A DNA stretch of 64,000 bases from Rhodoplanes sp. Z2-YC6860 (GTDB lineage: Bacteria; Pseudomonadota; Alphaproteobacteria; Rhizobiales; Xanthobacteraceae), in the NCBI RefSeq assembly GCF_001579845.1, contig NZ_CP007440.1, forward strand, positions 6,780,029 through 6,844,028, written 5' to 3'. Shown piece after piece: positions 32,483 to 40,778 of this stretch. The translations under genes were made by a program, and so were the position numbers. The notes under the pieces are model-generated. The model was not told the DNA's origin. It saw nothing but the letters and a program-made list of their open reading frames with translations, and ran no database searches. Within the stretch, counting starts at the first letter, position 1; each line of letters starts with the position of its first letter.

Positions 32483-33817
32483 TCAAGGCTTTCCGGCTTG
32501 CGGCGCCGGCGCCATGCCGAGGATCTCGGCAAGCCTCTGATAACCATCCAGGAGGCTCGTGCATTCGTCCTTGTACTGGCCGAGGAAGGCCTCGAGCGGT
32601 GTGTGCAGGCCGATCGCCTCGTCGACCTCGAGGCTGGAGCCAGGACGGTAAGCGCCGAGCCGGATCAATTCCTCCATATCGGCGTAAGTCGCCATCACCT
32701 TGCGGGCGCGGGTCAGCACATCGAGAAAATCGGGATTGGCCGACTTCGGCATCGAGCGCGACACTGACTTCAGCACGTTGATCGCGGGATAGCGGCCGCG
32801 CTCCGCGATGGCGCGCTCCATGACGATATGGCCGTCGAGGATCGAGCGCACCGCGTCCGCGATCGGCTCGTTGTGATCGTCGCCTTCGACCAGCACCGTA
32901 AAGATGCCGGTGATGCTGCCGTCTGCCGAGCCCGGTCCGGCACGCTCCAGCAACCGCGGCAGTTCGGCGAACACCGTCGGTGTATAGCCTTTGGCGGTGG
33001 GAGGCTCGCCGGTGGCAAGACCGATTTCGCGCTGCGCGATGGCGAAGCGCGTGACCGAGTCCATCAGGAGCAGCACCTGCTGGGCCTGGTCGCGGAAGTA
33101 CTCGGCGATCGAGAGCGTGAGATAGGCCGCCTGACGGCGCATCAGCGCCGGCTCGTCGGAGGTCGCGACCACCACGACCGAACGGGCCAGGCCCTCCTCG
33201 CCCAGATCGTCCTGCAGGAATTCCTGCACCTCGCGGCCGCGCTCGCCGACCAGGCCGATCACCGACACGTCGGCCACGACGTTGCGGGCCATCATCGAGA
33301 GCAGCACCGACTTGCCGACGCCGGAGCCGGCGAAGATGCCCATGCGCTGGCCGTGGCAGCAGGTGATGAAGGTGTTGAGCGCGCGGACGCCCAGATCGAT
33401 CGGCGCGCCGACCCGCCTCCGGGCATGCGCTGCCGGCGGCGGCGCCTTGAACGGATAAGGCAGCGGCCCCGACGGCAGCGGACCCTTGCCGTCGATCGGC
33501 TCGCCCATGGCATTGACGACCCGGCCGAGCCAGGCGCTGGTCGGCCGGACCGCGGCGCGGACCGCGGAGACGACCGCGCGGCAGCCGCGCCGCACGCCTT
33601 CCAGCGTCGCGAACGGCATCAGCAGCGCATGACCGCCGGAAAAGCCGACCACCTCACAGGGAATTGGCGCACTCTGCGTCTCGATCACGACCCGGGCGCC
33701 GACCGACATAGTATGAAGAGGCCCCGCCACCTCGACCATCAGCCCCCGGACCCCAACCACCCGGCCGTAAACCTCGTTTCCGTCCAGTTCCTCGATCTGT
33801 TCGAGAAGTGCCCTCAT
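32483..33817 (-). CDS. fliI: Flagellum-specific ATPase FliI
   Basis: 444 residues. Walker A AGSGVGKS lies at 163-170, followed by [13 protein letters not shown] and Walker [12 protein letters not shown], the T3SS ATPase signature. FliI hexamers unfold or release substrates at the export gate with FliH and FliJ. Its ATG at 33817 is 372 bases from ctrA, divergently oriented. The gap holds TTAA-type half-sites (33854-33857 with TTTA seven bases later, and TTAA at 33878) and a dense cluster of GANTC sites. Confidence 0.97.
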
Positions 33818-34189
33818 AAAAGATGGCCTTTTGGTAACGTTTTGAGGCTCGTATTAACCGCCTGTTTACCCGCGTCGTTAATCATTACGTCACCGTCGTT
33901 GGGATTAAGGCGACGCTCATCCCGCCAGGACGGATGGATGAGTCTCGAGAGTCGGTTGGACCCGATTCTTAATGTGGAGTCTGAACGGGACCGTGGCGAA
34001 AAAACCACTCTCGGGCAACATCTTAAGGCGATTCGGCCGAATCTGGCCAGCCAATGGTTGCGACCCGGAAAAAGGTTTTGTTAACCATATCCTTGTTAAG
34101 CTTCCGAATCGTTTGTCCCAAGGCGTTTTCACGGGCCGCCCCTGCGGCGCCCCAGGTTTGAGCCCGCAGCGGCGAAGAAGGGGTTTGGC
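33818..34189. promoter_or_regulatory. fliI-ctrA divergent control region with GANTC cluster
   Basis: 372 bases without a gene. Seven GANTC (CcrM) sites lie at 33940, 33949, 33964, 33977, 34030, 34039 and 34106, far more than chance for this base composition. TTAACCAT, a CtrA-type half-site, is at 34081-34088 and TTAA recurs at 34096-34099, about 90-110 bases before the ctrA start. Near fliI there are further TTAA/TTTA half-sites (33854-33881). In Caulobacter the ctrA promoter is controlled by CcrM methylation and by CtrA itself. Confidence 0.7.
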
Positions 34190-34891
34190 ATGCGCGTTCT
34201 GCTGATCGAGGACGATAGCGCCACTGCGCAATCGATTGAGCTCATGCTCAAGTCCGAGAGCTTTAACGTCTACACGACGGATCTCGGCGAAGAGGGCGTC
34301 GATCTCGGCAAACTCTACGACTACGACATCATCCTGCTCGACCTGAACCTGCCGGACATGTCCGGCTTCGAGGTTCTGCGGTCGCTGCGGGTCTCCAAGG
34401 TCAAGACTCCGATCCTGATCCTGTCCGGCCTCGCCGGCATCGAGGACAAGGTGAAGGGCCTGGGCTTCGGCGCCGACGACTACATGACCAAGCCGTTTCA
34501 CAAGGACGAGCTGATCGCGCGCATCCACGCGATCGTGCGCCGCTCCAAGGGTCATGCGCAGTCGGTCATCAACACCGGCGACCTCACCGTCAATCTCGAC
34601 CAGAAGACGGTGGAAGTCTCCGGCGCCCGCGTGCACCTCACGGGCAAGGAATACCAGATGCTGGAGCTGCTTTCGCTCCGCAAGGGCACGACGCTGACCA
34701 AGGAGATGTTCCTCAACCATCTCTACGGCGGCATGGACGAGCCCGAACTCAAGATCATCGACGTGTTCATCTGCAAGCTCCGCAAGAAGCTCGCGAACGC
34801 CTCGAACGGCAAGAACTACATCGAGACGGTTTGGGGCCGCGGCTACGTGCTGCGCGAGCCGAGCGAGTCCGACGAGCGGATTCCAGCGTAA
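34190..34891 (+). CDS. ctrA: Cell-cycle response regulator CtrA
   Basis: 233 residues, full length. The receiver domain has the acidic pair at D8/D9, phospho-acceptor D51 ([13 protein letters not shown]) and the Lys of MTKPF. The OmpR-type winged helix ends with [13 protein letters not shown]. The linker and DNA helices ([31 protein letters not shown]) match alphaproteobacterial CtrA almost word for word. CtrA phosphorylated via CckA-ChpT controls flagellar, chemotaxis and cell-division genes by binding TTAA-N7-TTAA. chpT is encoded at 50723 in this same window. A strong terminator follows. Confidence 0.98.
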
Positions 34892-39739: not shown

Positions 39740-40648
39740 ATGAAACTGACTGTGCGTGGCGTCCGCAGCGTCGAGATCGAAATGAGCGAGCCGCAGCGGG
39801 CCGCCGATTTTTACAGCCGCATTTGGAATCTGACCGAGGTGGCGCGTGACAACGGCTCGTTCTGGTTTCGCGGCACCGGGCATTGCCATCACATCCTCGC
39901 CATTCACCCCGCGACCAAAGGCCCGGCGATCCGCCGCCTGGTGTTCGACGCAGCGAACAATGACATCGTTCAGTCTCTGCATGCCAAGGTGGCATCGAGC
40001 GGGTGCACCGCAGAAGCCCCGCATGCCTTGTCGGGCCAGGGCGGCGGCTATGGCTTCGGTTTCGTCGACGTCGAAGGCCGCAATCTCGCGGTGGTGTGCG
40101 GTGAGCGCGATCACGCCGACACCGCCGACGTTCGCGACCGACCGCGCAAGATCGCACACGTCAATCTCAACGCCGCGCAACTCGAGAGGAGCAACGCATT
40201 CCTTTCCGACGTGCTGGGCTTCCGCAAGGTCGACCACAGCGGTCCTCTGCACTTCTTCCATTGCGACAGCACCGACCATTCTTCGATGGTGATGGGCGCG
40301 GCGGCAACGCCGACACTCAATCATGTGTCGTTCGAATTGCCTGACCTCGAATCCTGCATGCGCGGCGGCGGCCGCATGCGCGACGCTGGCTATCCGATCG
40401 AATGGGGGCCGGGACGGCATGGGTCCGGCAACAACGTGTTCTGCTATTTTGCGGGTCCCGAGGAATTTCCGATCGAATACACCGCCGAGGTGCTGCAGAT
40501 CGACGACAGTTACGAATTCCACGGCCCGGAATACTGGAAGTGGCCGCCCGGCCGACTCGACCAATGGGGCATCACGCCGCCGCACACGGCGCGCTGGAAG
40601 CGGATTCAGGATCTGATGCTGTTTCCGGCGGGGCAGCATCGGTTGTAA
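39740..40648 (+). CDS. VOC-superfamily protein, type I extradiol dioxygenase-like
   Basis: 302 residues with two VOC (glyoxalase/dioxygenase) modules. The second carries the metal ligands expected for extradiol dioxygenases: His in IAHVNLN, His in LNHVSFE and Glu in PIEYTAE. Such enzymes cleave catechol-type rings next to the diol, using Fe(II). The C-terminal PPGRLDQWGI tail is like catechol 2,3-dioxygenase relatives. It is divergent from the oxygenase at 38855 and ends at a large palindromic element. Substrate not known. Confidence 0.83.
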   Translation: MKLTVRGVRSVEIEMSEPQRAADFYSRIWNLTEVARDNGSFWFRGTGHCHHILAIHPATKGPAIRRLVFDAANNDIVQSLHAKVASSGCTAEAPHALSGQGGGYGFGFVDVEGRNLAVVCGERDHADTADVRDRPRKIAHVNLNAAQLERSNAFLSDVLGFRKVDHSGPLHFFHCDSTDHSSMVMGAAATPTLNHVSFELPDLESCMRGGGRMRDAGYPIEWGPGRHGSGNNVFCYFAGPEEFPIEYTAEVLQIDDSYEFHGPEYWKWPPGRLDQWGITPPHTARWKRIQDLMLFPAGQHRL

Positions 40649-40665
40649 GCGGGCCGCATACTCCG

Positions 40666-40778
40666 CTGTCATTCCGGGGCAGTCGCGTAAGCGAGCGAAC
40701 CCGGAATCCAGACAAACACGAGTCTTTGCTTTTCTGGATTCCGGGTTCACGCGCTGCGCGCGTGCCCCGGAATGACAG
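40666..40778. repeat. Complex palindromic element in a convergent gap (B)
   Basis: Perfect 16-bp outer arms (CTGTCATTCCGGGGCA at 40666-40681 and its complement at 40763-40778) enclose perfect 15-bp inner arms (40698-40712 and 40733-40747) with a 20-base loop. It fills the gap between the VOC gene and the convergent CoA-transferase gene. Confidence 0.92.

Follow-up and report, generated by a model that had tools for sequence, protein, structure and literature searches.

Among the described systems, the closest to the locus presented here is the P1 promoter of ctrA in Caulobacter crescentus, which is activated by CcrM and GcrA and repressed by CtrA, and in which, as PMC4287350 describes it, a GANTC site is located at -28/-29 and a TTAA repressor half-site at -14. 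According to the same source, the Caulobacter cell-cycle starts bearing a GANTC between -10 and -35 are switched on at 40-60 min, a group with GANTC outside the -10/-35 region is at its lowest at 40-60 min, and a third group with evenly spread GANTCs peaks at 80-100 min. In Agrobacterium tumefaciens, the gcrA promoter is described as carrying six GANTCs in 250 bp and as less active when methylated (PMC11514494). For S. meliloti, it is reported that depletion of CtrA changes ctrA P1 mildly and P2 not significantly and that transcription of ctrA is probably governed by other factors (PMC4433202), and that the distal ctrA start gives a 291-nt leader (PMC3616915).

The present analysis bears on whether DNA methylation times ctrA outside Caulobacterales, a subject on which the published accounts differ. 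In the parts of these papers considered here, PMC7987155 infers that GcrA targets ctrA in Caulobacterales and Sphingomonadales only, and leaves it outside the Rhizobiales GcrA regulon; PMC8116508, in which GANTC before ctrA has already been counted, finds the word in only 50% of Rhizobiales ctrA promoters; and the reconstruction of PMC2877005 has CcrM controlling CtrA and GcrA in a cluster including Rhizobiales, with the remark that methylation control is not derivable from site counts.

The window, by which we mean the whole stretch of 64,000 nucleotides from Rhodoplanes sp. Z2-YC6860 that was analysed, contains the following features around ctrA.

32483..33817, minus strand: fliI, the divergent neighbour of ctrA (TIGR03498, 644 bits, above cut-off)
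33940..33953, no strand: inverted pair GAGTC-N4-GAGTC, conserved upstream element (from the sequence and its order-wide recurrence)
33964..33968, no strand: GANTC (GATTC), old site by the family alignment and the genus relatives
33977..33981, no strand: GANTC (GAGTC), new relative to the genus, absent in the five aligned genus relatives
34030..34043, no strand: perfect 14-bp palindrome GATTCGGCCGAATC, composed of the old site 34030 and the new site 34039
34058..34085, plus strand: predicted P1-like promoter TTGC-N19-TTAAC, with the geometry of Caulobacter P1
34068..34072, plus strand: GAAAA replacing the spacer GANTC of relatives (lost site, by comparison with them)
34081..34088, plus strand: TTAACCAT, CtrA half-site TTAA over the predicted -10 (from the sequence)
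34106..34110, no strand: GANTC (GAATC), old site lying shortly after the predicted start (family alignment)
34190..34891, plus strand: ctrA, cell-cycle response regulator (NF045991 equivalog, 425 bits, cut-off 350; Response_reg and Trans_reg_C)

The locus resembles Caulobacter P1 in that it is the same gene with the TTGC-N19-TTAAC core and a TTAA half-site over the -10, and in that most of its relatives having the promoter carry a GANTC in the spacer. It differs in that this genome has no spacer GANTC, that the spacer site of the relatives is mostly 13 and not 15 nt before TTAA, and that there is an extra flanking array with an inverted pair, which the cited part of the work on Caulobacter does not mention. 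With the A. tumefaciens gcrA promoter it shares the nature of a GANTC-dense promoter of a cell-cycle regulator, whereas the gene is another one and the sites of the ctrA region are at conserved offsets.

The GANTC cluster and its genomic background

The 372-bp gap between fliI and ctrA (33818-34189) contains seven GANTCs and no others, at 33940, 33949, 33964, 33977, 34030, 34039 and 34106, that is at -250, -241, -226, -213, -160, -151 and -84 relative to the ATG of ctrA (34190), and they span 171 bp. All of them had been placed in about 170 bases before ctrA by the preliminary description of the window, and its estimate that the word occurs once per several hundred to a thousand bases agrees with the 2.0 per kb found overall in our genome sample, which consists of 40 random 20-kb stretches (800 kb) together with the window, 864 kb in all or 10.5% of the 8.19-Mb genome.

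In fact GANTC is underrepresented in the window, with 128 observed versus 341 expected, and first-order Markov copies of the gap contain 1.4 sites on average and seven or more in 0.05% of 20,000 shuffles. At the sampled intergenic rate of 3.12 per kb, which is approximate because the genes of the background were called by a simple script, the Poisson probability of the seven-site cluster is 2e-4. The density of the ctrA stretch is 18.8 per kb and thus well above this intergenic rate, and it is the highest in the 864 kb sampled, so that a density no higher than in other gaps, which the preliminary description had allowed for, is not what we find. Within these 864 kb, seven GANTCs in 171 bp are unique to the ctrA stretch; among 1604 site-anchored stretches of 171 bp in the random sample, one has six and four have five. 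A chance cluster is ruled out by the gap shuffles and the genome sample.

The cluster before ctrA is exceptional within the sampled DNA, yet dense clusters do occur elsewhere in the genome. The second densest stretch of the sample has six sites in 348 bp (L295:18634-18981, at about 5078.7 kb of G000:C1), including inverted GAGTC/GACTC words, and in the window itself five GANTCs are found in the 188 bp of 40554-40741, where a reading frame ends and a short gap follows.

The predicted P1-like promoter and its spacer site

By analogy with Caulobacter P1, where TTAA is at -14, transcription is predicted to start near 34095, and the seven GANTCs would then stand at about -155, -146, -131, -118, -65, -56 and +12. 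None is located between the -35 and the -10 in this genome. To place this absence, we compared upstream regions in the order Hyphomicrobiales, where ctrA was detected in 155 of 160 genomes and 149 regions (its own and 148 others) were used, with one ctrA truncated by the contig start and five others left out. The spacing from TTGC to TTAAC is exactly 19 in 62 of the 149, while each other spacing from 15 to 23 occurs at most twice and a reversed control gives one; in 41 genomes the TTAAC box was not found. Of the 62 N19 promoters, 52 have a spacer GANTC, which occupies a single position in 49, and eight have GAATT; the remaining two are L133, with neither word, and this genome, with GAAAA. Since eight of the ten spacers without GANTC read GAATT, something other than methylation may have preserved the GAATY element, for example a role as part of a CtrA site.

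The promoter is by no means universal. It is found in only 19 of 46 families, and the P1 geometry with a spacer GANTC in 17, in a survey from which 17 of the 80 named loci dropped out, 16 for lack of the start motif searched for and one for its short upstream region. Outside Hyphomicrobiales, where the view is based on few named loci, seven of nine from other orders or unplaced Alphaproteobacteria have no N19 promoter, including two from Brevundimonas and three from Hyphomonadaceae. The same N19 geometry enclosing a GANTC (GATTC in AP07) is present in Caulobacter sp. AP07 and in a Phenylobacterium MAG, and the AP07 sequence contains the CtrA-binding stretch given for C. crescentus ctrA P1 in PMC3751295.

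Among ten genus relatives searched, ctrA was found in five, and all five have the spacer GANTC. A family tree built from 37 ctrA genes groups this species with these five (support 99/96), and the state of the spacer site needs seven changes across the tree, with clustering no greater than chance. By parsimony, the spacer site was lost after the split from the genus relatives; because these keep the site and the tree needs seven changes, the loss here appears to be a recent one, and changes of this kind recur. The suggestion of a strongly methylation-gated promoter, made in the preliminary description, stands as far as the sites are non-chance and conserved and the genome has CcrM-like and GcrA genes; it is least secure for this very species, because the GANTC equivalent to that of Caulobacter P1 is absent here.

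Conserved positions of the array and its inverted pair

At least one GANTC lies within 300 bp of ctrA in 136 of the 149 order genomes, with a mean of 3.2 against 2.4 for the next of 15 like words. This fraction is higher than that of PMC8116508, a difference which may come from our stricter choice of ctrA orthologues. In the family sample, namely the best-scoring and hence nearest 30 loci of the 116 genomes with ctrA, the mean is 5.0, and in both samples GANTC is the commonest of 16 like words before ctrA despite its scarcity across the window. The GANTC-N4-GANTC pair occurs within this distance in 55 of the 149 order genomes, compared with seven for the best of 15 control words; in the family it occurs in 18 of 30 loci versus 13 for the G+C-rich control word GCNGC, so that there the pair count alone is weak evidence. 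The genomes of either sample are related, and these counts are not independent.

The positions are more telling when measured from the TTAAC box, which was chosen irrespective of GANTC and served as anchor in 108 of the 149 order regions and in 36 of 38. In the 108 order sequences, GANTC peaks at -13 (41 rows from 15 families), +24 (25 rows, 11 families), -132 (20 rows, 10 families) and -141 (19 rows, nine families), and also at -51; in this genome the sites stand at -141, -132, -117, -104, -51, -42 and +25, with none at -13. The highest peaks of the control words (CANTG 21, AANTT 18 and 17, TCNGA 16, AGNCT 14 rows) are at most 16 bases from the box and partly overlap it, and farther away control peaks reach at most nine rows, taking the two top peaks of each of the 15 words.

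In 38 aligned family rows, GANTC is present at -84 in 38, at -160 in 36, in the spacer in 30, at -241 in 28 and at -250 in 27, with rarer occurrence at -226 (15), -151 (3) and -213 (2). The letter at N differs among these positions: it is T in 35 of the 36 rows at -160 (34030) and always A in the spacer, while at -226 (33964) there are 11 GACTC and four GATTC, four of the five genus relatives being included, and at -84, where GANTC is found within three columns in every row, there are 33 GAATC, two GAGTC, two GACTC and one GATTC. All four letters at N would be expected were the methylase motif itself the conserved feature, and it is at -84 that this motif as such is best supported, N being nearly fixed at -160 and in the spacer. 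Several sites are conserved in position within the genus and the family as well as in part of the order, and therefore the preliminary description's reservation, that the sites might not be conserved in close relatives, falls away. To judge from these alignments, the array is old and ancestral and not peculiar to one genome. The number seven, to which that description had attached meaning, is in contrast a lineage-specific tally: this genome retains five of the six sites that occur in the genus and lost one, and it gained two (33977 and 34039), the latter completing the palindrome GATTCGGCCGAATC. As a side observation, one genus relative carries a second CtrA-like gene, 84% identical (L093, G010:C2:114865-115560), for which a mixed assembly is possible.

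The pair itself follows the profile YGAGTC-N4-GARTCR-S-TTR in 54 order sequences, which were picked for having it, so that information can be drawn only from the flanks, the N and the four inner bases. Here N is G in 49 of 54 at the first site and G or A in 53 of 54 at the second, and the inner bases are weakly biased. With 62 of the 149 regions having a pair within 450 bp, and 49 of these a box, the distance from pair to box is 137-149 bp in 43 (14 families), among them 31 at 140-142, and outside this range in six. In five genomes of a further family, f37, the whole module lies more than 100 bp further upstream and the distance from pair to TTAACCA is still 141 bp. Because the distal leader of S. 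meliloti has the length given above, the pair would there fall inside it, upstream of the proximal promoter. We found no published account of the conserved pair or of the N19 geometry with spacer GANTC for Hyphomicrobiales in the literature searched, supplements aside, and both may already be known. S. meliloti ctrA was reportedly mapped by Barnett in 2001.

By eye, a TTR-N10-TTAA motif adjoins the pair at 33956-33972 of the window and in relatives with apparently regular spacing; in several relatives a further TTAA follows 13 bases on, and the arrangement does not fit the N7 rule of CtrA. Searched across the order, YGAGTCN4GARTCRSTTR gives 90 matches in 63 of 160 genomes, compared with five for the backwards control; by hand comparison of coordinates, 39 are at ctrA and 51 elsewhere. 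A regulon of GANTC pairs was considered on the basis of 20 stretches holding 23 of the 51 non-ctrA matches. The ten reading frames scanned beside them share no common gene; nine match families with no relation to one another (GIDA, DnaJ, histidine kinase, lactamase fold, MobA-like, glutaminase, DUF805, phage portal, LrgA), and one is without a match. In L321, L322, L323, L325, L327, L328 and L333, copies of GAGTC-(A/C/T)TTT-GARTC-RSTT were noticed near position 1500, in several genomes, beside unrelated genes and outside any frame of at least 150 aa; they seem to form a distinct recurring element.

A reading of the ctrA region and the alternatives

A single RAMA-type, CcrM-like methylase is encoded in the genome, its RAMA and N6_N4_Mtase domains both scoring above the Pfam cut-offs, as well as two GcrA-family genes above the Pfam cut-off (190.7 bits, and 92.4 bits for the second at G000:C1:5419491-5419910), while the NCBIfam cut-offs are not reached for CcrM (612.7 versus 830) and GcrA (166.7 versus 280). 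The extended GcrA motif YGAKTC makes up 128 of 160 family sites versus 826 of 1604 in the genome sample; in the order, it makes up 321 of 479 sites within 300 bp, no higher than 147 of 216 at 300-600 bp.

We consider it rather probable that the region is an orthologue of ctrA P1 within a conserved array of CcrM sites, and that the methylation input, if used, has shifted here from the spacer to the flanking sites. It would then be anatomically orthologous to the P1 region of Caulobacter, with a predicted sigma-70-type core TTGC-N19-TTAACCAT whose -10 lies under the CtrA half-site, and phosphorylated CtrA could shut this promoter. The ancestral array would have comprised about six CcrM sites, namely the pair about 141 bp upstream of TTAAC, single sites between, one in the spacer and one past the start. 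After passage of the replication fork the array would stay hemimethylated up to the action of CcrM late in the cell cycle, and GcrA or another reader would convert this state into ctrA transcription; methylation, GcrA binding, promoter use, start sites and timing are all supposed here after Caulobacter. In this species the spacer site would have been lost and two flanking sites gained, and because of that loss the methylation input, if any, must come via the flanking sites or be weakened. The parS sites are located at 273-275 kb; if the origin is there, ctrA would be about 1.65 Mb from it, at some 40% of the length of its replichore, and would therefore stay hemimethylated through a good deal of S phase. 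The sites at fixed offsets name the exact bases for testing, and natural losses, as in this genome, are ready-made comparisons.

The pair and the spacer GAATYA may instead be parts of binding sites of a protein, CtrA or another regulator, with GANTC coincidental and methylation irrelevant there. The constrained N of the pair and its biased flanks fit this, as do the near-universal GAATC or GAATT of the spacer and the T at -160; moreover, ctrA of S. meliloti is known to be preceded by five CtrA sites (PMC3616915), and NtrX also binds before ctrA in the cited part of PMC9223101. The four bases between the sites of the pair are weakly biased only, however, GANTC is kept at -84 while N varies, both GACTC and GATTC occur at -226, and the word, scarce in the window, ranks first before ctrA in both samples; we therefore regard this explanation as unlikely.

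An extension of the favoured reading, that is of P1 within a CcrM-site array, would make the pair a dedicated hemimethylation sensor, a paired site for GcrA or another reader which signals fork passage to ctrA from afar and on which species that lost the spacer site, like this one, depend. We hold this to be rather unlikely; if it were so, the epigenetic input to ctrA would have been relocated several times within one family.

Quite improbable in our view is that MucR binds the A+T-rich region and blocks CcrM at some of the sites, which would give a local hypomethylated on/off state and not a switch timed by replication. The genome does encode one MucR-family homologue (PF05443, 180.6 bits), the gap has 54.6% G+C versus 64.9% in the window, and MucR-shielded GANTCs, several in a promoter as here, are described in C. 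crescentus and S. meliloti (PMC5172544). The main text of PMC5172544 does not mention the ctrA promoter or SMc00654, though, and MucR binding to the ctrA region here is putative. A+T richness is a normal property of promoters.

That the array serves the divergent flagellar gene fliI, or is a by-product of a long A+T-richer gap, is very improbable indeed, since although in the window the start of fliI is 123 bp away from the pair, and the gene lies beside ctrA in the fetched stretch at 77 of 124 loci (out of 141), the pair is retained at 22 of the 47 loci without fliI there, compared with 44 of the 77 with it, so that it belongs with ctrA and fliI as the sole cause is rejected, and the composition-matched shuffles yield far fewer than seven sites.

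The region upstream of gcrA (L095:1260-1462, about 7472.7-7472.9 kb of G000:C1) holds five GANTCs at -241, -183, -173, -160 and -43, and is, on this count, another GANTC-dense cell-cycle promoter.
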